This document shows positions 6,533 through 64,000 of a DNA stretch of 64,000 nucleotides, one piece after another. The position numbers and the translations under genes are program-made. Every line of letters begins with the position of its first letter. The stretch's first letter is position 1. This DNA comes from Ovis canadensis. Lineage: Eukaryota > Chordata > Mammalia > Artiodactyla > Bovidae. The stretch spans positions 6,842,501 to 6,906,500 of the forward strand of contig NC_091247.1 of the NCBI RefSeq assembly GCF_042477335.2. The letters are read 5' to 3'. The notes beneath the pieces were generated by a model. That model was not told where the DNA came from. It worked only from the letters and a program-made list of their open reading frames with translations, and did not search any database.

Positions 6533-6947
6533 GCGGCTGCTGCTAAGTCGCTTCAGTCGTGTCCGACTCTGTGTGACCCCATAGACGGCAGCCCACCAGG
6601 CTCCCCGCTCCTTGGGATTCTCCAGGCAAGAACACTGGAGTGGGTTGCCACTTCCTTCTCCAATGCAGGAAGTGCAAAGTGAAAGTGAAGTCGCTCAGTT
6701 GTGTCCGACTCTGTGCGACCCCATAGACGGCAGCCCACAAGGCTCCCCCCTCCCTGGGATTCTCCAGGCAAGAACACTGGAGTGGGTTGCCATTTCCTTC
6801 TCCAATGCATGAAAGTGAAAAGTGAAAGTGAAGTCGCTCAGTCGTGTCCAACCCTTAGCGACCCCATGGACTACAGCCTACCAGGCTCCTCCGTCCATGG
6901 GATTTTCTAGGCAAGAGTAGTGGAGTGGCTTGCCATTGCCTTCTCCA
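6533..6947 (-). mobile_element. Bov-A SINE with three tandem Bov-A monomers
   Basis: Three successive Bov-A units, near 6545-6672, 6690-6812 and 6835-6947, read on the minus strand. The usual Bov-A2 is a dimer. It is flanked by an 11-base target-site duplication with one mismatch: ACACATCTACT at 6522-6532 and ACACATTTACT at 6948-6958, within the L1. Confidence 0.85.
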
Positions 6948-7364
6948 ACACATTTACTAACATAGCCCAGATCGAGAACACTGGCAATATTCAGCGCTGC
7001 CGAGGATGCAAACAAATGGGAGCTCTTGTTCATTGCTGGTGGGAATGCAAAATGATACGTTCACTGGAGAAAAGAGTTTGGCGGTTTCTTATAAAACGAA
7101 ACCAACTGTTCCCATACAACCCAGAAAACATGCTTCTTGGTATTTACCTAAAGGAGCTGAAAACTTATATTCACACAAAAAGCTACACATAGGTGTTTAC
7201 AGCAGCTTCATTCATAATTGCCAAAACTTGGAAGCAGCTATTTGCCCTCAATATGTGAATGGATAAGTAAGCAGTGGTCCATCCAGATGACGGAATAATA
7301 TCCAACAATAAAAAAAAAGAAAGAACCATAAAGCTAAGAGAAGACATGAAAGAAGTTAAAATGC

Positions 7365-39967: not shown

Positions 39968-40195
39968 GTTGTTGTTGTTTTTCAGTCGCCCAGTCATGTC
40001 TGACTCTTTGCGACCCCATGGACTGCAGCATGCCAGGCCTCCCTGTCTGTCCCTTACCACCTCCCAGAATTTGCCCAAGTTCATGTTCATTGCATCGGTG
40101 ATGCCTTCCAGCCATCTCATCCTCTGACACCCTCTTCTCCTTCTGCCCTTGATCTTTCCCAGCATCAGGGACTTTTCCCGTGAGTTGTCTGCTTG
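39968..40195 (-). mobile_element. BovB/Bov-A 3' fragment
   Basis: Starts with (GTT)n and TTTTCAGTCGCCCAGTCATG, the BovB 3' end read in reverse. Confidence 0.82.
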
Positions 40196-40196
40196 C

Positions 40197-41258
40197 ATCA
40201 GTTCAGTTCAGTTCAGTTGCTCAGTCGTGTCCGACTCTTTGCGACCCCATGAATCGCAGCACGCCAGGCCTCCCTGTCCATCACCAACTCCTGGAGTTCA
40301 CCCAAACTCACATCCATCGAGTCGGTGATGCCATCCAGCCATCGTATCCTCTGTTGTTCCCTTCTTCTCCTGCCCCCAATCCCTCCCAGCATCAGAGTCT
40401 TTTCCAATGAATCAACTCTTTGCATGAGGTGGTCAAAGTATTGGAGTTTCAGCTTTAGCATCAGTCCTTCCAGAGAACACCCAGGACTGATCTCCTTCAG
40501 AATGGACTGGATCTCTTTGCAGTCCAAGGGACTCTCAAGAGTCTTCTCCAACACCACAGTTCAAAAGCACCCATTCTTCAGCGCTCAGCTTTCTTTACAG
40601 GCCAACTTTCACATCCATACATGACCACTGGAAAAACCATAGCCTTGATTAGACGGGCCTTTTTTGGTAAAATAATCTCTCTGCTTTTCAATATGCTATC
40701 TAGGTTGGTCATAGCTTTTCTTCCAAGGAATAAATGTCGTTTAATTTCATGGCTGTAATCACCATCTGCAGTGATTTTGGAGCCCCTCAAAATAAAGTCT
40801 GACACTGTTTCCACTGTTTCCCCATCTATTCGCCATGAGGTAATGGGACCTGATGCCATGATCTTAGTTTTCTGAATATTGAACTTTAAGCCAACTTTGT
40901 CACTCTCCTCTTTCACTTTCATCAAGAGGGTTTTGAGTTCCTCTTCACTTTCTGCCATAAGGGTGGTGTCATCTGCATATCTGAGGTTATTGATATTTCT
41001 CCCGGCAATCTTGATTCCAGCTTGTGCTTCTTCCAGCCCAGTGTTTCTCATGATGTACTCTGCATGTAAGTTAAATAAGCAGGGTGACAATATACAGCCT
41101 TGACATACTCCTTTTCCTATTTGGAACCAGTCTGTTGTTCCATGTCCAGTTCTAACTGTTGCTTCCTGACCTGCATACAGATTTCTCAAGAGGCAGGGCA
41201 GGTGGTCTGGTATTCCCATCTCTTTCAGAATTTTCCACGGTTTATTGCGATCCACACA
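40197..41258 (-). mobile_element. BovB, 5'-truncated, RT region open
   Basis: About 1.06 kb. The minus-strand frame 41255-40578 stays open for 225 codons and covers the end of the reverse transcriptase with RYADDTT and GSKITADGD blocks. It is 5' truncated before the palm domain and cannot be functional. Confidence 0.9.
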
Positions 41259-48374: not shown

Positions 48375-48485
48375 CACATATTGGTTCCAGATGTGGCTCT
48401 CTCTCCCAGCCCTCTCCAGCAATTTAATTAAATTCCCCCAGACAGCCAGGAGGGTTTCTTAATGATCAAATTTCCCGGCTCCCCT
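48375..48485. promoter_or_regulatory. Candidate element with a 14-bp AT palindrome
   Basis: AATTTAATTAAATT at 48421-48434 is a perfect palindrome with overlapping homeodomain TAAT cores. CTTAATGATCAAATTT follows 25 bases later. The surrounding DNA is GC-rich and repeat-free. Confidence 0.3.
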
Positions 48486-49224
48486 CCTAGAACGGGCCCT
48501 CTCTGTCTCCCTGACGGATGGCCGACGGGACTCTTCCTGCCGTCAGCTTTGCCAAGCAGGGCCCACGGCGGTGGAGTGGGGTGGGGTAGGGGCTTCCCCG
48601 GAGCACAAAGGACCCTGCTCTGTGCCCCCCTCTGTCTCCCTCCATCCCCAAGGGCTCTGAGCCCTCCTGAGCCTTCCCTTGGCAGAGCCTCGCACTCAGC
48701 TGAGCTGCAAGGGGTGGAGGGCTCTGAGTGGTTCTTGCCCTGAGCTCCACCTCTGGGCCAGCCTGCCAGGAACTGAGGCCAAGCGGGCGACAGTGGGGGT
48801 CAGATGGGGAGTCTGGGTGAATCAAGACTCTGGGTTCACAGACCAGTGAGGCATGGGGCAGGCTCAGACCTCTTGGGCACCCTCCCCAACCCATTTTGGC
48901 AAGGAGATAGACTAAGGCTCATTGAGGGCAAGGCCTGGGCCGAGATTACAGATACCTGCCTGCCAAGGATGGAAAGGCATATACAGATGGTCTAGCATTT
49001 AGGTGGAGAGGATGTGCCCAGAGGAGGCCTGGGATGGTTCCCACATGTGAAGTTCAGTGTCCTTCTCAGTAGGACCCCTGACTTCTGGAGCAGGAAGGAA
49101 TCTAGGTGAGCCTCGAAACCACCATTTTCTTGTGCCCATGAGGCAGCTAAGTTGAGAACAAGCCAGGCCAGACCGCAGGCCCCAAACCTCCTCCCATCTT
49201 GAGATGGGGGTCCTGAGGGGCTCT

Positions 49225-53559: not shown

Positions 53560-54870
53560 TGGCTGTGTATCCTCCAAAGAGATATTTTAGATCCTAATCT
53601 TGAGGAACCTATGACCATGGTCTTATTTGGAAATAAGGTTTTTGCAAATATAATCAAGTTACGGTGAATTCATACTGGATTAGGGTGGGCCCGCAATCCA
53701 GTGACTGGTGCCGTTTAGAAAAGACAGGGAGATCTGGGCACAGACACAGATGCAGGAAAGAAGGCCGCGTGGAGACAGAGGCGGGCAGAGATCAGTTCAG
53801 TTCAGGTGCTCGGTCGTGTTCAACTCTTTGCGAACCCGTGGACAGCAGGCCTCCCTGTCCATCACCAACTCCTGGAGTTTACTCAAACTCATGTCCATCC
53901 AGTCAGTGATGCCATCCAGCCATCTCATCCTCTGCTGTCCCCTTCTCCTCCTGCCCTCAATCTTTCCCAGCATCAGGGTCTTTTCCAATGAGTTAGCTCT
54001 TTGCATCAGGTGGCCAGAGTATTGGTTTCAGCTTCAACATCAGTCCTTCCAATGAACAGTCAGGACTGATTTCCTTTAGGATGGACTGGTTGGATCTCCT
54101 TGCAGTCCAAGGGACTCTCAAGAGTCTTCTCCAACACCATAGTTCTAAAGCATCAATTCTTTGGCGCTCAGCTTTCTTCACAGTCCAACTTTCACATCCA
54201 TACGTGACCACTGGAAAAACCATAGTTTTGACCAGACGGGCCTTTGTTGGCAAAGTAATGTCTCTGCTTTTGAATATGCTATCTAGGTTGGTCATAACTT
54301 TTCTTCCAAGGAGCAAGTGTATTTTAATTTCATGGCTGCAATCACCATCTGCAGTGATTTTGGAGCCCCCCCCCAAATACAGTCTGTCACTGTTTCCACT
54401 GTTTCCCCATCTATTTGCAATGAAGTGATGGGACCAGATGCCATGATCTTAGTTTTCTGAATATTGAGCTTTAAGCCAACTTTTTCACTCTCTTTCACTT
54501 TCATCAAGAGGCGCTTTAGTTCTTCACTTTCTGCCATAAGGGTGGTGTCATCTGCATATCTGAGGTTATTGATATTTCTCCCGGCAATCTTGATTCCAGC
54601 TTGTGCTTCTTCCAGCCCAGCGTTTCTCATGATGTACTCTGCATATAAGTTAAATGAGCAGGGCGACAATATACAGCCTTGATGTACTCCTTTCCCTATT
54701 TGGACTCAGTCTGTTGTTCCACGTCCAGGCAGAGATCAGGTGATACCGACATAAGCCATGCCCAGAGATGCTAAAAACCTTCTCCATTGTCTTCAGAGGG
54801 AGCATGGCCCTGTGGACAATTTGAGGTCAGAGTTCTGGCTCCCAGGACTGGGAGAGAACAGATTTCTGTT
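53560..54870 (+). mobile_element. Ancient interspersed repeat, split by a BovB insertion
   Basis: CCTATGACCATGGTCTTATT before and GATTTCTGTTGTTTTAAGCC after the BovB belong to the same old repeat type as at 38,425-39,085. Family not assigned. Confidence 0.6.
53796..54727 (-). mobile_element. BovB, 5'-truncated, with perfect TSD
   Basis: About 0.93 kb BovB 3' end covering the RT YADD region to the TTCAGTTCAG tail. Flanked by a perfect 12-base duplication GGCAGAGATCAG at 53784-53795 and 54728-54739. Confidence 0.92.
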
Positions 54871-56895: not shown

Positions 56896-57008
56896 ATGCC
56901 GTTCCTGCATGGCTTCCGGAGGATTATCTTCGAGTACCAGCCGCTCGTGGATGCTATCCTGGGCTCCTTGGGCATCCAGGACCCCGAGCGGCAGGAGCCC
57001 CTGGACGG
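56896..57008 (+). CDS. ASB6: ASB6 coding exon 1
   Basis: Codes for residues 1-37 plus two bases of codon 38, from MPFLHGF to ERQEPLD. It is followed by a GTAACT donor at 57009. This N-terminal tail lies before the ankyrin domain. Confidence 0.95.
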
Positions 57009-60000
57009 GTAACTCGCGCCCTTCCCCGCCTCAGACCGGCGCGGCACCCCTTTCCTTGTCCCCACAAATATGGCGGGCGGTGTCCTCATCTGTCAGAGGA
57101 GACCGAGGGCGGGCGGGGATGGGTGGAGGCGGCCGCGGCCCGCTCAGGGAGGCCCGTGGGGCGGGGTGGCGGCAGGGCCTCTGCCTCAGCGCCCCACCCT
57201 GCGCCCTGCCGGTCCTGTGCCCTCTACCTGGAGCTGCAGAGGAGCAGGATGTAGTCGGTAAACGCGGCGCGGGATGAGCTTTCTGTAGCCCGGAGTTTCT
57301 CGTTTGGTATAGACAGGCGCGCGTCTGTCATACGTTAGCCTGTGGGAAGGCTGTTCAGAAAGCGCATCGTTTAGAGGTTACATCGGCGAGCTAAAACCCT
57401 CACCCTTCGTGGTGATCGTGCTACCAGAGAGAGGCTGACAGTGGTTAAAGTGGTATATACTGCCTTACGTGGAGTGGAGAAAAGAGCCGAGGAGAGGGGG
57501 GATCGGGGGTGTGTTTTGGGCATCAGTTGGAATTGGCGAGGGGGGGTAGGCGGGTTGGGGCTGTGGTGCAAAGGGCTTTCTGGGTCCCTCAGCCTTTGGT
57601 GGACCAAACCGTCTCTGAGTGTGATCGGGCTTTGGGAGGTCTTCTGACCGCCCTGGCTGCTGGGCGGCCTGAGCTGGGGTGCAGCACCTTCTGCAGCCCC
57701 GGGTTAGTCGGTGTCTGGTTCTTGCCTTTGGCCGCAAGGGTTTCCTTCAGTGCCAACAGCGCAGGTGTATGAGGCTTTGTACCTAAGTCAGGGGCCAGGT
57801 TGTATGGGTGACTTGGAAGGAGGTTGATGACAGCCCCAGTCCTTTCTCAGCAAACCTGGAGTCTGCTCCATTGAAAAGATCCAGCTTGGTCCACCAACCT
57901 TTTCGGAAGAGACTTTCTGCCCCATGGAGCCAGGGCCCTGCCTGGGGTGGGGGTGGGGGCGAAGTGGGGGTGACTGCAGGAGACCAAGGCCACTTACCCG
58001 CAGGGTGCCCTGCCAACCTGTCCCACCCTCAGCTGCTCCTCTCTCCTGCCCCAGGCCCAGTTATGCTGCCAGCGAGGAGAGCCGCATCCTTGTTCTCACC
58101 GAGCTGCTGGAGAGAAAAGCCCACTCTCCATTTTACCAGGAAGGCGTGAGCAACGCCCTGCTGAAGATGGCCGAGCTGGGGCTGCCGCGCGCAGCCGCCG
58201 TGCTCCTGCGGAATGGAGCCAACCTCAACTTTGAAGGTCTGCCGGAGCCTGGAGGGCTGGGGTGGATAGATGGCTTGAGTGTGGCCTGCCGGGGGTGGGC
58301 AGTCAAGCCTCCAGGCTCTGCCCTCATCTCTTCAGGGGTGATGCCTGAGGAAACCCACACTGGGTGGCCTCCCACCCCCTGCAGTTTCCCAGAGGCCCTC
58401 AACCACCTCTGATCAGGAGCAAGTTTGTCGCTGCTCCTATCAGGCGACTGACTTAGCAAACTTTCCCCCAGCTCCCAGCTAAATCCTTGCTTCCATTAAT
58501 GCAAAAATGGGGCTGCTGGCGCTGTGCCCAGAGCTAAGGGAAAGTAATTTTCTGCCGCTGGTTCTGAGCCATGTTGCATGCTGGTTCCTGCCACAGGGAG
58601 AGGGGGGAAACAGATAAGACACATTGGGCATAAATCACGGACTGATGGTGTTGGCGTCTAGCTGGTGTGCCCGGGAGGTGCTGATGGAGCCATCTTCCTT
58701 CCCTCTTTGTTTTGCCCTGGGTGGGGGGTTGGGGGGGGCAGGCAAGGTCAGCCAGGAGACACTCGGGACTGACTTGTTCCCGAATGGGGTTTTTGTGCTG
58801 ATACAGGACGTGCCAGGCGTGTCTCTCCTCCCCTTTGGAGGACAGGCTCAGAGGCGGCTGGGCTCCTGGGAGGTCAAGGAGCGGGGGAGGCGTTCTGCAG
58901 TCAGTCACTTGGGAGACCCAGCTTTGAGCATTTGTGGGTGTTCCTCCCCACAGCCTTGTTTTAGGTCCTATTTTACAAAAGGGACTAAAACCCAGATTAA
59001 GTACCTTGTCCGTTCACTGGAACACCTCCCCAGGACCCGAACCTAGGCCTGACTGAGCACCCTAGCGTCTGACGAGGACAGCTGTGTCCTGACCCCTCAC
59101 GGTGCCAGGAGCCCTTGGGTCGGAGCGTTGGGGCTAGGCTGCCAGGCTGGTCCTGGAATCCTGTGAGAATGTGCCGTCGGGCAGGGCTGATGTGAGCTGT
59201 GTCTGCGCCTTCAGACCCGGTCACCTACTACACGGCGCTGCACATCGCCGTCCTGCGAAACCAGCCTGACATGGTAGAGCTGCTGGTGCGCCACGGGGCC
59301 GACATCAACCGGAGGGACCGGGTAAGAGCCAGCCCTGCTCTGAAGGAGGCATGTGGCTGGGGCCCTGAGCCGCTCACAGGCCCCAGGGCCAACCTGGCTG
59401 TGCTTTCTTGGCTCAGATCCACGAGAGCAGCCCCCTGGACCTGGCCAGCGAGGAGCCGGAGCGCCTGCCCTGCCTGCAACGCCTCCTGGACCTCGGAGCA
59501 GACGTCAATGCGGCCGACAAGCATGGTGGGTGCTCCTGGGAGAAAAGCAGGATAGGCTGGGGCCAGACTGCCTCGTGAGGTAACCCTGGGCGTGCTGGGG
59601 TGATGGCTCGGCAGGCAGGCTGGAGGCAGCCCGTCTGACGGCAGAGCATGGCTGGATGCGTGCTGGTGCCTTCTGCTGACTCACAGAGGCTTGGGAGGTG
59701 GTGCATCGTGGCCCCACAAGGGCGTCTGCAGGAGCTGGACCTGTGTGCTCAGCTCCTGAGTGACAGGGCTTCCTTCCACCCAGGCTGGGTCTCAGGTAGC
59801 ATCTCAGGGCCCAGAAAAATCCTCCTTCTCCTGGCCCTTCTGGTCCAATGTTTGTGTCAATGGAGAGAAAACGGCCAGAAACCTGTCACCCTCAGCCGTA
59901 GCTGAGAGGTCAGTTTGGTGTTTTGTTTTTGTTTATTTTGGGCTGTGCTGGGTCTTTGTTGGTATGTGGACGTTTATCTAGTTGTGGTGAGTGGGGCGAC

Positions 60001-61528
60001 TTTCTGGTTGGAGTGTGCAGGCTTTCCATGTTGGAGGCTTCTCTTGGGAACATGGGCCCTAGGGCGTGTGGACTCAGTAGCTGTGCTCCCGGGCTCTCCA
60101 GCACGGGCTTAGTGGCTCTGCGGATATGGGATCTTCCAGGCCAGGGATCAAAGCTGTGTCTCCTGCACGGCAGGTGGATTCTTTACCACTGAGCGGCCAG
60201 GGAAGCCCAAGATCAGCTTTGGTTTCCTTTCATTTGGCTGCACCGGGTCTTAGTTGTTGCACGTGGGATCTAGTTCCTTGACCCGGGATCAAACCCAGAC
60301 CCCCAGCATTGGGTGCACAGAGTCCTAGCCACTAGGCCACAGGGAAATCCCCAAGATCAGTTGTTTTTAGCCTTCATTATCTGGTCCCGAGGGTCTGTAT
60401 TTCCTCCGGGCTGGCCTGGCCTGGCCTGGGCTTCCCCAGCCCCGCCTCTCCGCCTCACTGGCTCTCCCTCACTAGGTAAGACAGCCCTGCTGCATGCTCT
60501 GGCCAGCAGTGACGGGGTGCAGGTCCACAACGCCGAGAACATCCGGCTCCTGCTGGAAGGAGGTGAGCCCCACCCTTCCACTCGGCCCCCAGACCGTGAG
60601 GCGCGGCCACCCAGGCTGAGGCCTCCTCCCACCTCCTCTTCCCCCTCCTGGCTCTCCTAGGAGGTGAGCCCCACCCTTCCACGCACCCCTGGACCATGAG
60701 GCGCAGCCCCCTGGGCCGAGGCCTCCTCCCACCTTCTCTTCCCCCTCCTGGCTCTCCTAGGAGGTGAGCCCCACCCTTCCACGCGCACCTGGACCATGAG
60801 GCGCAGCCCCCTGGGCCAAGGCCTCCTCCCACCACCTCTTCCCCCTCCTGGCTCTCCTAGGGGCGGACGTCAAGGCCACCACCAAAGACGGGGACACAGT
60901 GTTCACCTGCATTATCTTCCTGCTGGGCGAGACGGTGGGAGGCGACAAAGAGGAGGCCCAGCTGATCAACCGCTTCTGTTTCCAAGTCACGCAGCTGCTG
61001 TTGGCCCACGGCGCCGACCCCAGCGAGTGCCCGGCCCACGAGTCCCTCACGCACATCTGCCTCAAGAGCTTCAAGCTCCACTTCCCCCTGCTGCGCTTCT
61101 TGCTGGAGTCGGGAGCCGCCTACAACTGCTCCCTGCACGGCGCATCCTGCTGGTCCGGCTTCCACATCGTCTTCGAGAGGCTCTGCTCCCACCCAGGCTG
61201 CGCGGAGGACGAGAGCCACGCGGACCTGCTGCGCAAGGCGGAGACCGTGCTGGATCTCATGGTGACCAACTCCCAGAAGCTCCAGCTGCCCGAGAACTTT
61301 GACATCCACCCTGTGGGCAGCCTGGCGGACAAGATCCAGGCCCTGCACTTCTCCCTGAGGCAGCTGGAGAGCTACCCCCCGCCCCTCAAGCACCTGTGCC
61401 GAGTGTACATCCGCCTCTACCTTCAGCCATGGCCCGTGGACGCCAAGGTCAAGACCCTACCTCTGCCTGACAGGCTCAAGTGGTACCTCCTCAGTGAGCA
61501 CAGTGGTGCCGTCGAGGACGACATCTGA
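56896..61528 (+). CDS. ASB6: ASB6, ankyrin repeat and SOCS box protein 6 (complete, six coding exons)
   Basis: CDS is join(56896..57008, 58055..58236, 59215..59321, 59417..59525, 60476..60562, 60861..61528): 1,266 nt, 421 residues plus TGA, the same length as human ASB6. All introns are GT-AG and the frame is unbroken. ASB6 is a substrate receptor for a Cullin-5/Elongin B-C E3 ubiquitin ligase; ankyrin repeats choose the target and the SOCS box docks Elongin C and Cullin-5. Ankyrin-like units are visible around residues 68-98, 102-133, 136-168, 171-208, 212-253 and 257-288, with hallmark TALHIAV and LLLxGAD patterns. The C-terminal SOCS box spans about 371-415, with BC-box LKHLCRVYIRL (375-385) and Cul5-box LPLP (399-402). 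Nothing looks degraded. Intron 5 is unusual: it contains a threefold tandem repeat that copies the splice sites. Confidence 0.97.
58055..58236 (+). CDS. ASB6: ASB6 coding exon 2
   Basis: A CCCCAG acceptor precedes 58055. The exon completes Gly38 and codes to Glu98, including the first ankyrin-like unit (SNALLKMAELG...ANLNFE). The donor is GTCTGC, weaker than consensus, but the reading frame and family alignment require this boundary. Confidence 0.94.
59215..59321 (+). CDS. ASB6: ASB6 coding exon 3
   Basis: Codes for residues 99-134 with a textbook ankyrin repeat (TALHIAVLRNQPDMVELLV, HGADI). The donor is a strong GTAAGA. Confidence 0.95.
59417..59525 (+). CDS. ASB6: ASB6 coding exon 4
   Basis: Separated from exon 3 by an intron of only 95 bases. 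Codes for residues 135-170 plus one base, the third ankyrin unit (SPLDLASEEPERLPCLQRLL, LGADVNAADKH). Confidence 0.95.
59930..60212 (-). mobile_element. CHR-type SINE in ASB6 intron 4
   Basis: TTTATTTTGGGCTGTGCTGG tail to CTGAGCGGCCAGGGAAGCCC head; antisense to ASB6. Confidence 0.8.
60220..60350 (-). mobile_element. CHR-type SINE in ASB6 intron 4
   Basis: TTTGGCTGCACCGGGTCTTA to CACTAGGCCACAGGGAAATC; second antisense copy in a row. Confidence 0.78.
60476..60562 (+). CDS. ASB6: ASB6 coding exon 5
   Basis: Codes for residues 171-199 plus one base (GKTALLHALASSDG to NIRLLLEG). The true donor at 60563 (GTGAGC) is followed by two near-identical copies of itself at 60664 and 60764, caused by the tandem repeat in intron 5. 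Confidence 0.94.
60561..60860 (+). repeat. Tandem triplication of about 100 bp forming ASB6 intron 5
   Basis: Three head-to-tail units of about 100 bases (60561-60660, 60661-60760, 60761-60860). Units 2 and 3 are nearly identical; unit 1 has diverged in its middle. Each ends with the acceptor sequence GGCTCTCCTAG, and each begins at an exon-5-like donor GAGGTGAGCCCCACCC. The intron therefore contains three donors and three acceptors in register. Confidence 0.95.
60861..61528 (+). CDS. ASB6: ASB6 coding exon 6, ankyrin repeats and SOCS box
   Basis: Longest exon, 668 nt, coding residues 200-421 and the TGA at 61526-61528. It carries the last ankyrin units, a helical linker (about 305-370) and the whole SOCS box. 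The acceptor CTCTCCTAG ending at 60860 is duplicated exactly at 60660 and 60760. Confidence 0.96.
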
Positions 61529-62583: not shown

Positions 62584-62705
62584 TTTAACTGAAAATGCCC
62601 CCCCGAGGAGAAGCCACAGGCACAGCTGGGAGTGATGCTCCGGTCTCTCTCCTTGCCACAGGCTGCGGTGACCATCATGTTAGGAGGCCAGGGCCCCATC
62701 ACCAC

Positions 62706-62884
62706 AGCACCAGCAATGTGGACATGCCCCCATCCCCCAACAGCACCAGGAACATGGACATCCCCCCATCCCCCCACAGCACCAGCAATGTGGACACGCC
62801 CCCACCCCCCCAAGAGCACCAGGAACGTGGACATGCCCCCACCCCCAACAGCACCAGGAACGTGGACGTGCCCTCAGCCCCACG
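62706..62884. repeat. Minisatellite, five units of about 36 bp
   Basis: Units start at 62706, 62742, 62778, 62815 and 62850. Each begins AGCACCAG and continues with a conserved AATGTGGACATG-like core and a C-rich tail. Spacing is 36, 36, 37 and 35 bases. It lies in the inferred NTMT1 3'UTR. Confidence 0.93.
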
Positions 62885-63328
62885 ATTCAGCAGGTGCCAT
62901 GTGGACTCGCAGCCAGGAGGTCCACAGCTGTAGGCCCCACAGTCCCAGCTCCCCCCCTTCCCCGAGGCACAGTCCTCAGCAACTGCATTAAGGGTCATTC
63001 TCTTCCTCCTGAGGCAGCCAGGCCTGTGGCTGGAGGGCCAGCCAGTGTCTTGGAGGTGAGGGACTCACTCTTGCTCCTGCTGGGAGCACAGTGGCTCAGG
63101 GGTCACCCACTCCCCACCTCGCTGCAGCCTCACCGCCCCATCCAGCAGCACTCCTCTGGACCAGGTTCCCTTATGCCTTTTTGAAAAAGAGCCTGTTTGG
63201 CAGTGGATGGCAGACAGGTGTATTTAGTGACCCCACTCAACACTCCCGAACCATCAACGTGGAGCGTCTGGGCCTCACCTGGCCGCCAGTCCCCAGTCCC
63301 ACACCGGCCCCGTGCTCCGCCGGCCCGC

Positions 63329-63585
63329 TCATCTCAGGGCGAGGCTGTAGACGTGGTAGATCTCGTCCGGGAGGTTCTCCTGCCGCTCCTGGGCCAGGAG
63401 GCTGAGGCCCGCGCTGCGGACGATCCTGTGCACCACGTCCAGGGCGCGGCACACGCTGCTGTCCACGTCATCCAGGATGACGCCCTCCTGGGCCATGTTG
63501 TCCTTGATGACGACAATGCCGTTGGGGCGCAGGCCCTGCTTGCAGCGCCGCAGGAACTCGGCCAGGTGCTCATCAGTCAGGTGGC
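63329..63585 (-). CDS. NTMT1: NTMT1 (METTL11A) last coding exon, C-terminal 84 residues
   Basis: On the minus strand a pyrimidine-rich CCCCCAG acceptor precedes 63585. Two bases finish a glycine codon, then 84 codons run to TGA at 63331-63329. The protein reads HLTDEHLAEFLRRCKQGLRP at its start, then PNGIVVIKDN, MAQEGVILDD and ends YHVYSLALR, matching the C-terminus of the 223-residue N-terminal Xaa-Pro-Lys methyltransferase NTMT1. The enzyme methylates the alpha-amino group of proteins such as RCC1 with S-adenosylmethionine, mainly in the nucleus. This part forms the end of the Rossmann-like methyltransferase fold; the SAM-binding motifs are in earlier exons beyond 64,000. The frame carried by a visible ATG here (63573-63334) is a shadow; the real frame has no ATG at its start because it is an internal splice product. 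Confidence 0.93.
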
Positions 63586-64000
63586 CTGGGGGAGGCAGAG
63601 GCCGTCACTGGGGAGAGGCGGGCTCCGCCAGGCCCCTGCGCGGCCTTCGGCACTGCCACTGACTTCCTGAGAGCTGACTGTGCTGAATACACAGGGTGTG
63701 CTGGCTCTCAACAGCCCAGAGGGGTTCACCAAACCCCACTTTGAGCGGAAATGGGCGCAAAAGCCACCTGCCCCACACCTGCCCTCCACCCATCCTTCCT
63801 AGCCCGGGCCAGTGGTGCGCACCCAGCTGAGTTCCTCACCTACATTACAACCCCAAACAGAACTCAGGGCTGGACCCCCACGGGCTCCCAGCAGGCCTGG
63901 GCCGCCCAGCTTGCAGTGGGGAGGCCTGCTGCCAGGTGGGCAACCCGAGAAGAGCACCCTGAGTGTGCCGTCAGGCTAAGTGGGTGCAGGATAGGACAGC
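63586..64000 (-). other. NTMT1: NTMT1 intron (partial)
   Basis: Sequence upstream of the last NTMT1 exon to the window end. No further exon or repeat is recognisable. Confidence 0.7.

Follow-up and report, generated by a model that had tools for sequence, protein, structure and literature searches.

Does an intron that carries three donors and three acceptors still splice as one intron, and how could it come to carry them? The question is raised by the last coding intron of a gene within the window, the whole 64,000-nucleotide stretch of Ovis canadensis DNA analysed here. We take the gene to be ASB6 from its protein, as did the sequence-only reading that drew attention to the locus.

Gene model

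The ASB6 coding region was assembled in silico from GT-AG boundaries and one open frame, with the following parts.

56896..61528, + strand: ASB6 coding region, six coding exons, 421 aa
56896-57008, + strand: exon 1 (first coding)
58055-58236, + strand: exon 2
59215-59321, + strand: exon 3
59417-59525, + strand: exon 4
60476-60562, + strand: exon 5, 87 nt, ending in GGA G|
60563..60860, + strand: intron 5, 298 nt, phase 1, three tandem units
60861-61528, + strand: exon 6, last coding, 221 whole codons and the stop, carrying the SOCS box

The coding sequence is complete within the window, and its introns 1 to 5 measure 1046, 978, 95, 950 and 298 nt, the array being located in the fifth and last one. 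Pfam matches to Ank and SOCS_box are found in the 421-aa protein, where the SOCS box covers residues 372-410.

Structure of the intron 5 array

Tandem Repeats Finder (TRF) identifies a single array at intron 5 (60558-60861, period 100, 3.0 copies, 91% matches, score 501). As a control, 1,000 dinucleotide shuffles of the 801 bases at 60300-61100 gave a top TRF score of 72, with 21 rows scoring at least 50. Alignment of the units gives the following arrangement.

60558..60658, + strand: unit 1, 101 nt; single-unit intron 60563-60660, 98 nt
60659..60758, + strand: unit 2, 100 nt; single-unit intron 60664-60760, 97 nt
60759..60858, + strand: unit 3, 100 nt; single-unit intron 60764-60860, 97 nt
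60659..60668, + strand: inner junction 1, acceptor AG at 60659-60660, GAG at 60661-60663, donor GTGAG from 60664
60759..60768, + strand: inner junction 2, acceptor AG at 60759-60760, GAG at 60761-60763, donor GTGAG from 60764

In each of the three units the last bases of exon 5 are followed by a donor, a GC-rich stretch, a pyrimidine tract and an acceptor. The donors D1, D2 and D3 start at 60563, 60664 and 60764; each reads GAG|GTGAGCCCCACC, and they are identical letter for letter from -5 to at least +12. The acceptors A1, A2 and A3 end at 60660, 60760 and 60860; each reads GGCTCTCCTAG, and they are identical across the last 25 nucleotides of the intron. The exon side of the acceptors differs, with GAG after A1 and A2 and GGG after A3. 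The sequence-only reading had described intron 5 as a threefold tandem repeat that copies both splice sites, and TRF and the unit alignment together confirm this; the donor and acceptor coordinates and motifs that it gave are exact.

The array thus consists of units of at least 10 bp inside an intron, as an intronic minisatellite does, and its unit includes the donor and acceptor sequence of the host. The copies are 88-95% alike. Per 100 compared columns, 11 mismatches are found between units 1 and 2, 12 between units 1 and 3 and 5 between units 2 and 3, and a 1-nt gap separates unit 1 from the other two. AGGAG, the last five bases of exon 5, is common to the inner unit boundaries. Both inner junctions read CTAG|GAG|GTGAG, that is TAGGAG|GTGAG, a NAGNAG acceptor abutting a donor. 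At the sequence level, an acceptor is therefore directly joined to a donor inside intron 5, as in recursive splicing, and the junctions are possible 3-nt exons (with the first AG) or zero-length ratchet points (with the second AG). The string CTAGGAGGTGAG has exact matches in the window at both inner junctions; with one mismatch allowed there are two more, at 48479-48490 on the - strand and at 63049-63060 on the + strand, where 0.62 are expected in shuffles. No special RNA fold of intron 5 is found, with a z-score of 0.24 and 113 of 200 shuffles folding at least as well. An extra weak donor-like CCGTGAGG is observed in unit 1 at 60594-60601, where units 2 and 3 have CCATGAGG, a CpG-type change.

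Splice patterns and protein products

Enumeration over the six sites gives 13 splice patterns including retention. Four of them keep the reading frame and the C-terminus, and the other nine lose the SOCS box. Use of the outer sites, D1-A3, adds nothing and yields 421 aa. D1-A1 combined with D2-A3, or D1-A2 combined with D3-A3, leaves 3 nt and one extra glycine (422 aa), and separate removal of the three units leaves 6 nt and two extra glycines (423 aa). By alignment to a DARPin, the extra glycines would be located in the loop that precedes the ankyrin GADV motif (LLEGG-ADV). The product is 234 aa long for D1-A1 alone and 379 aa long, with the frame shifted, for D1-A2 alone; the patterns in which D1 is unused give 231 aa, the stop codon being the TAG of the unit-1 acceptor. 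The 13 patterns result in ten product sizes (+0, 3, 6, 100, 101, 103, 104, 200, 201 and 298 nt), and only +3, +103 and +201 are each common to two routes.

By the usual 50-55-nt rule, and assuming an intron-free 3' untranslated region, only one of the nine patterns without the SOCS box has a stop placed for nonsense-mediated decay, namely D3-A3 alone, whose stop precedes the last junction by 103 nt. Most of these products would escape decay, since no coding intron follows intron 5.

The arithmetic of the earlier suggestion, that upstream acceptors would add 200 or 100 nt and cost the SOCS frame, is right by this enumeration. The further suggestion of 3-base micro-exons or stepwise splicing needs refinement: the CTAG|GAG|GTGAG junctions exist as described, and complete stepwise removal keeps the frame. 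Each step leaves GAG behind, hence one or two glycines, and stepwise removal is therefore the sole other route by which the protein is spared. It is also possible for the GAG to be lost, given that TAGGAG|GTGAG is a NAGNAG acceptor abutting a donor.

Use of the outer splice sites

We consider it likely that a tandem duplication of the whole intron gave rise to the array and that the outer donor and acceptor are used, leaving the ASB6 protein unchanged. The spliceosome would join the outermost sites, D1 at 60563 and A3 at 60860, in most transcripts, and minor products probably come from the inner sites. Since the sequence close to the sites is equal among the donors and among the acceptors, the context must decide; judged from the letters, scoring restricted to the sites cannot prefer the outer donor and can barely separate the acceptors. 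The context favours D1-A3, since D1 alone is preceded by a real exon and A3 alone is followed by one, while A1 and A2 both meet a full donor within 3 nt. In addition, the intact 421-aa frame needs either D1-A3 or a complete stepwise route, and nine of the 13 patterns destroy the C-terminus.

One feature of unit 1 points in the other direction. The best branch-site candidate, GGCTG[A]GG with its adenosine at 60619, lies 41 nt before A1 and scores 3.6 bits against 2.2 bits, by a rough, approximate matrix. The candidate motif is CTGAG in unit 1 and CCGAG and CCAAG in units 2 and 3. If these differences are read as CpG changes, unit 1 would have acquired CTGAG more recently; the candidate would favour A1, against the outer pair.

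The nearest measured precedent is the VNTR in intron 18 of human ABCA7, and its low one-unit retention would by analogy favour D1-A3. This retention makes up 2 ± 1% of transcripts (PMC5954066), when the two frameshift figures are taken in the order of the events listed in that report. The ABCA7 frameshift products rise when cycloheximide blocks decay (PMC5954066). The 2% is a steady-state value, and the second donor is therefore used in more than 2% of splicing events.

Alternative explanations

A different route to an intact frame would be removal of the intron in steps, in which D1 is joined to A1 first, the donor 3 nt past this junction is reused, and so on, with one or two glycines gained. 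In a variant of the same route, splicing to the second AG of TAGGAG would leave nothing behind, as at a zero-length ratchet point. Both inner junctions have the sequence CTAG|GAG|GTGAG, the routes ending at A3 keep the frame (+3, +3 and +6), and each unit is close in size to ASB6 intron 3 and carries a complete set of splice sites. However, GAG is the poorest NAG acceptor, and the U2AF and U1 sites, only 3 nt apart, should clash. Recursive splicing is reported in small human introns, but conventional lariats are favoured over recursive ones in introns below 1,000 nt (PMC10156609). Furthermore, the exon junction complex in human cells represses donors just downstream of a new exon junction, at up to 15 nt after it, and in HeLa cells depleted of the complex only 5.3% of putative cryptic microexons showed increased inclusion (PMC6224609). 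We thus regard stepwise removal as unlikely, and a working stepwise intron in a vertebrate intron of 298 nt, with identical pairs of sites spliced successively to give 0, 1 or 2 glycines, has a slim chance of being real. If it were, the length of ASB6 would depend on the number of units per allele and on the activity of the exon junction complex.

It is likewise improbable that the inner sites are used often enough to provide a regulated share of ASB6 without the SOCS box. The count of patterns would allow it, as nine of the 13 lose the C-terminus and only one of these nine has a decay-placed stop. The best-scoring branch-site candidate by the rough matrix is held by unit 1, and the blocks next to the splice sites are invariant between the copies. 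On the other hand, selection would be expected to act against losing the SOCS box in a large fraction of transcripts, and the second donor of ABCA7 accounts for about 2% of steady-state transcripts, a figure which is an underestimate because of decay (PMC5954066).

An assembly or collapse artefact, with the animal carrying a different number of units, is very improbable. One assembly stands behind the sequence, and tandem arrays vary in copy number. However, the copies differ at 5 to 12 of 100 positions in a unit-specific way, which stuttering of a single copy would not give, and being 88-95% alike they make an assembly stutter unlikely.

A mobile introner-like element inserted repeatedly is hardly credible: introners have boundaries that coincide with splice sites, as the units do here, but they leave similar copies in many genes, whereas a search of the Ovis canadensis assembly (2.97 Gb, 42 contigs; very common words skipped) with the array returned one match, itself, the copies stand head to tail at one position, and no inverted repeat of at least 12 nt with both arms inside the array was reported.

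Origin and age of the array

The history of the array can be proposed as follows. The ancestor would have been a short, GC-rich intron of about 98 nt, which was duplicated in tandem as a whole, donor and acceptor included. A second duplication would have followed and resulted in the three-unit intronic minisatellite. Since intron 3 of ASB6 has 95 nt, an ancestor of 98 nt would be ordinary for this gene. The match between the copies reaches back to -5 (AGGAG) at the donor and is unbroken at the acceptor only as far as +1 (AG|G); these limits overlap in AGG, a 3-nt breakpoint homology. The duplication was probably joined at these 3 nt, common to the end of exon 5 and to the acceptor, by a mechanism that we infer. 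That an ancestral intron of this size was duplicated with the last bases of exon 5 had been proposed before, and the AGG breakpoint and the divergence pattern support it.

The order of events may be read from the divergence. As units 2 and 3 differ from each other at 5 positions and from unit 1 at 11 and 12, the first duplication likely gave unit 1 and the ancestor of units 2 and 3, and the second split unit 2 from unit 3. Of the 15 variable columns, eight show CG/TG/CA alternatives, all of them in the middle of the unit, which by their letters are CpG decay in the ancestral unit. When the CpG-type columns are left out, every pair of units differs at 4 of 90 positions. These distances are equal, and the proposed order hence depends on a 1-nt gap, seven CpG-type columns and two further columns, which distinguish unit 1.

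From the CpG-free divergence and a rate of 2.2 × 10^-9 per site per year, the age of the array would be roughly 10 million years. The range of 2 to 38 million years comes from three mutation rates (1.5, 2.2 and 3 × 10^-9 per site per year) and Poisson limits, and the apparent age would be lowered both by selection on the splice motifs and by gene conversion. The duplications would have been close to neutral.

At its two ends, which take in the splice sites, the unit does not vary between the three copies (24 and 23 of 101 columns). If the 15 variable columns were placed uniformly, so narrow a span would have P 0.0003, and P 0.0035 with 12 events, in which three CpG column pairs are counted once each; both forms of the test were chosen post hoc. 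The inner sites could be under selection or homogenised, a hint and no more, and the argument from the invariant ends for maintained inner sites is weakened by the fact that the CpG-type changes are all in the middle of the unit.

Comparison with known systems

Repeats that carry a donor are known from IFI6 and ABCA7, and going by what these reports describe, the less usual feature of ASB6 is that donor and acceptor are copied together. In human ABCA7 the VNTR of intron 18 has a 25-bp unit beginning with the first intronic base and thus with the donor of exon 18, and its copy number is highly variable, with 23.7 copies in the reference (PMC5954066). Both cases are intronic tandem repeats whose unit includes the donor of the exon, and retention of one unit, which shifts the frame, is observed in ABCA7. 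In contrast, the ASB6 unit is the whole intron with donor, pyrimidine tract and acceptor, while the parts of the ABCA7 report used here describe no copied acceptor. In the IFI6 (6-16) minisatellite, two downstream units are alternative donors and three mRNA species result (Turri et al. 1995, cited in PMC4526556). This repeat, unlike that of ASB6, multiplies donors only, as far as it is cited there, and its alternative donors are reported to be used (PMC4526556).

That introns can be gained by tandem duplication is well documented (PMC4974935, PMC3443670). Similar to ASB6, the tandem duplications in ATP2A1 and potato RdRp supply new splice sites, and the potato case copies signals of the parent intron/exon structure (PMC4974935). 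They differ from ASB6 in that they add a new intron, while ASB6 copies an existing intron with 3-5 exon bases inside the old one. An engineered reporter with a 6-nt microexon (PMC6224609) resembles the inner junctions of ASB6 in having a donor a few nucleotides beyond an acceptor; in ASB6, however, the distance is 3 nt and the arrangement was born by duplication, occurs twice in a 298-nt intron and is known from sequence alone. Among the matches listed in the literature search, which covered titles and abstracts with most subscription journals outside it, no mammalian repeat multiplying donor and acceptor together was apparent. No description of the ASB6 array was among the matches listed by title and abstract either, which does not prove that it is unpublished.

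The choice between splice sites has classically been tested with donors and acceptors that were duplicated artificially. The ASB6 array is a natural test of this kind, in which three donors and three acceptors that hardly differ in sequence recur every 100 nt. In sheep, amplicon or junction data could reveal which factor is decisive, be it exon context, proximity or the order of transcription, and also whether re-splicing at natural junctions is blocked by the exon junction complex. The array further suggests a way to copy a whole intron inside a gene that costs the protein little. It is also a pitfall for gene annotation, as aligners may put reads on the wrong unit.

Genomic neighbourhood

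The window corresponds to C3:6842501-6906500, on a contig of 232 Mb. TRF was also run over 264 kb of the same chromosome (the window and 200 kb alongside, with 70 N), which gave 15 rows at eight places (period 30 or more, 1.8 copies or more). The motif YAG-N0-6-GTRAG is found only in the ASB6 array among these eight, at both inner boundaries and once inside unit 1. Preceded by a pyrimidine-rich stretch, it is present 26 times on the two strands of the 264 kb (about 0.1 per kb). With one place in eight carrying the motif, the coincidence of repeat boundary and splice site is no habit of the local repeats, eight places being too few for an estimate of its rarity genome-wide.

A search of the same genome for a retrocopy of spliced ASB6 mRNA, which would have preserved the exon 5/6 junction as a fossil, found none: from seven scored candidates there were three matches, which are exon 6, exon 5 and one stretch of 36% identity with stops on C16. 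Relatives of exon 6 were, as expected, absent from bacteria/archaea and viral contigs, where 32 and 5 pattern matches, respectively, were not confirmed.

Convergent with ASB6 is an open frame on the - strand at 63329-63604, whose translation we take to be the C-terminal end of NTMT1. A second minisatellite, with a 36-nt unit in 4.9 copies and no YAG-N0-6-GTRAG motif, is located between the two genes at 62704-62881. The tandem arrays at 6545-6948 and 39981-40405 have units of 143 and 227 nt and are head-to-tail SINE-like copies, presumably of the ruminant tRNA-derived/Bov-A type. By eye, the open frame at 54292-54705 on the - strand resembles a fragment of a LINE reverse transcriptase. About 97 kb downstream of the window, a compound minisatellite (L024, 7048-7563) shows overlapping periods of 40, 68, 148 and 188 nt.
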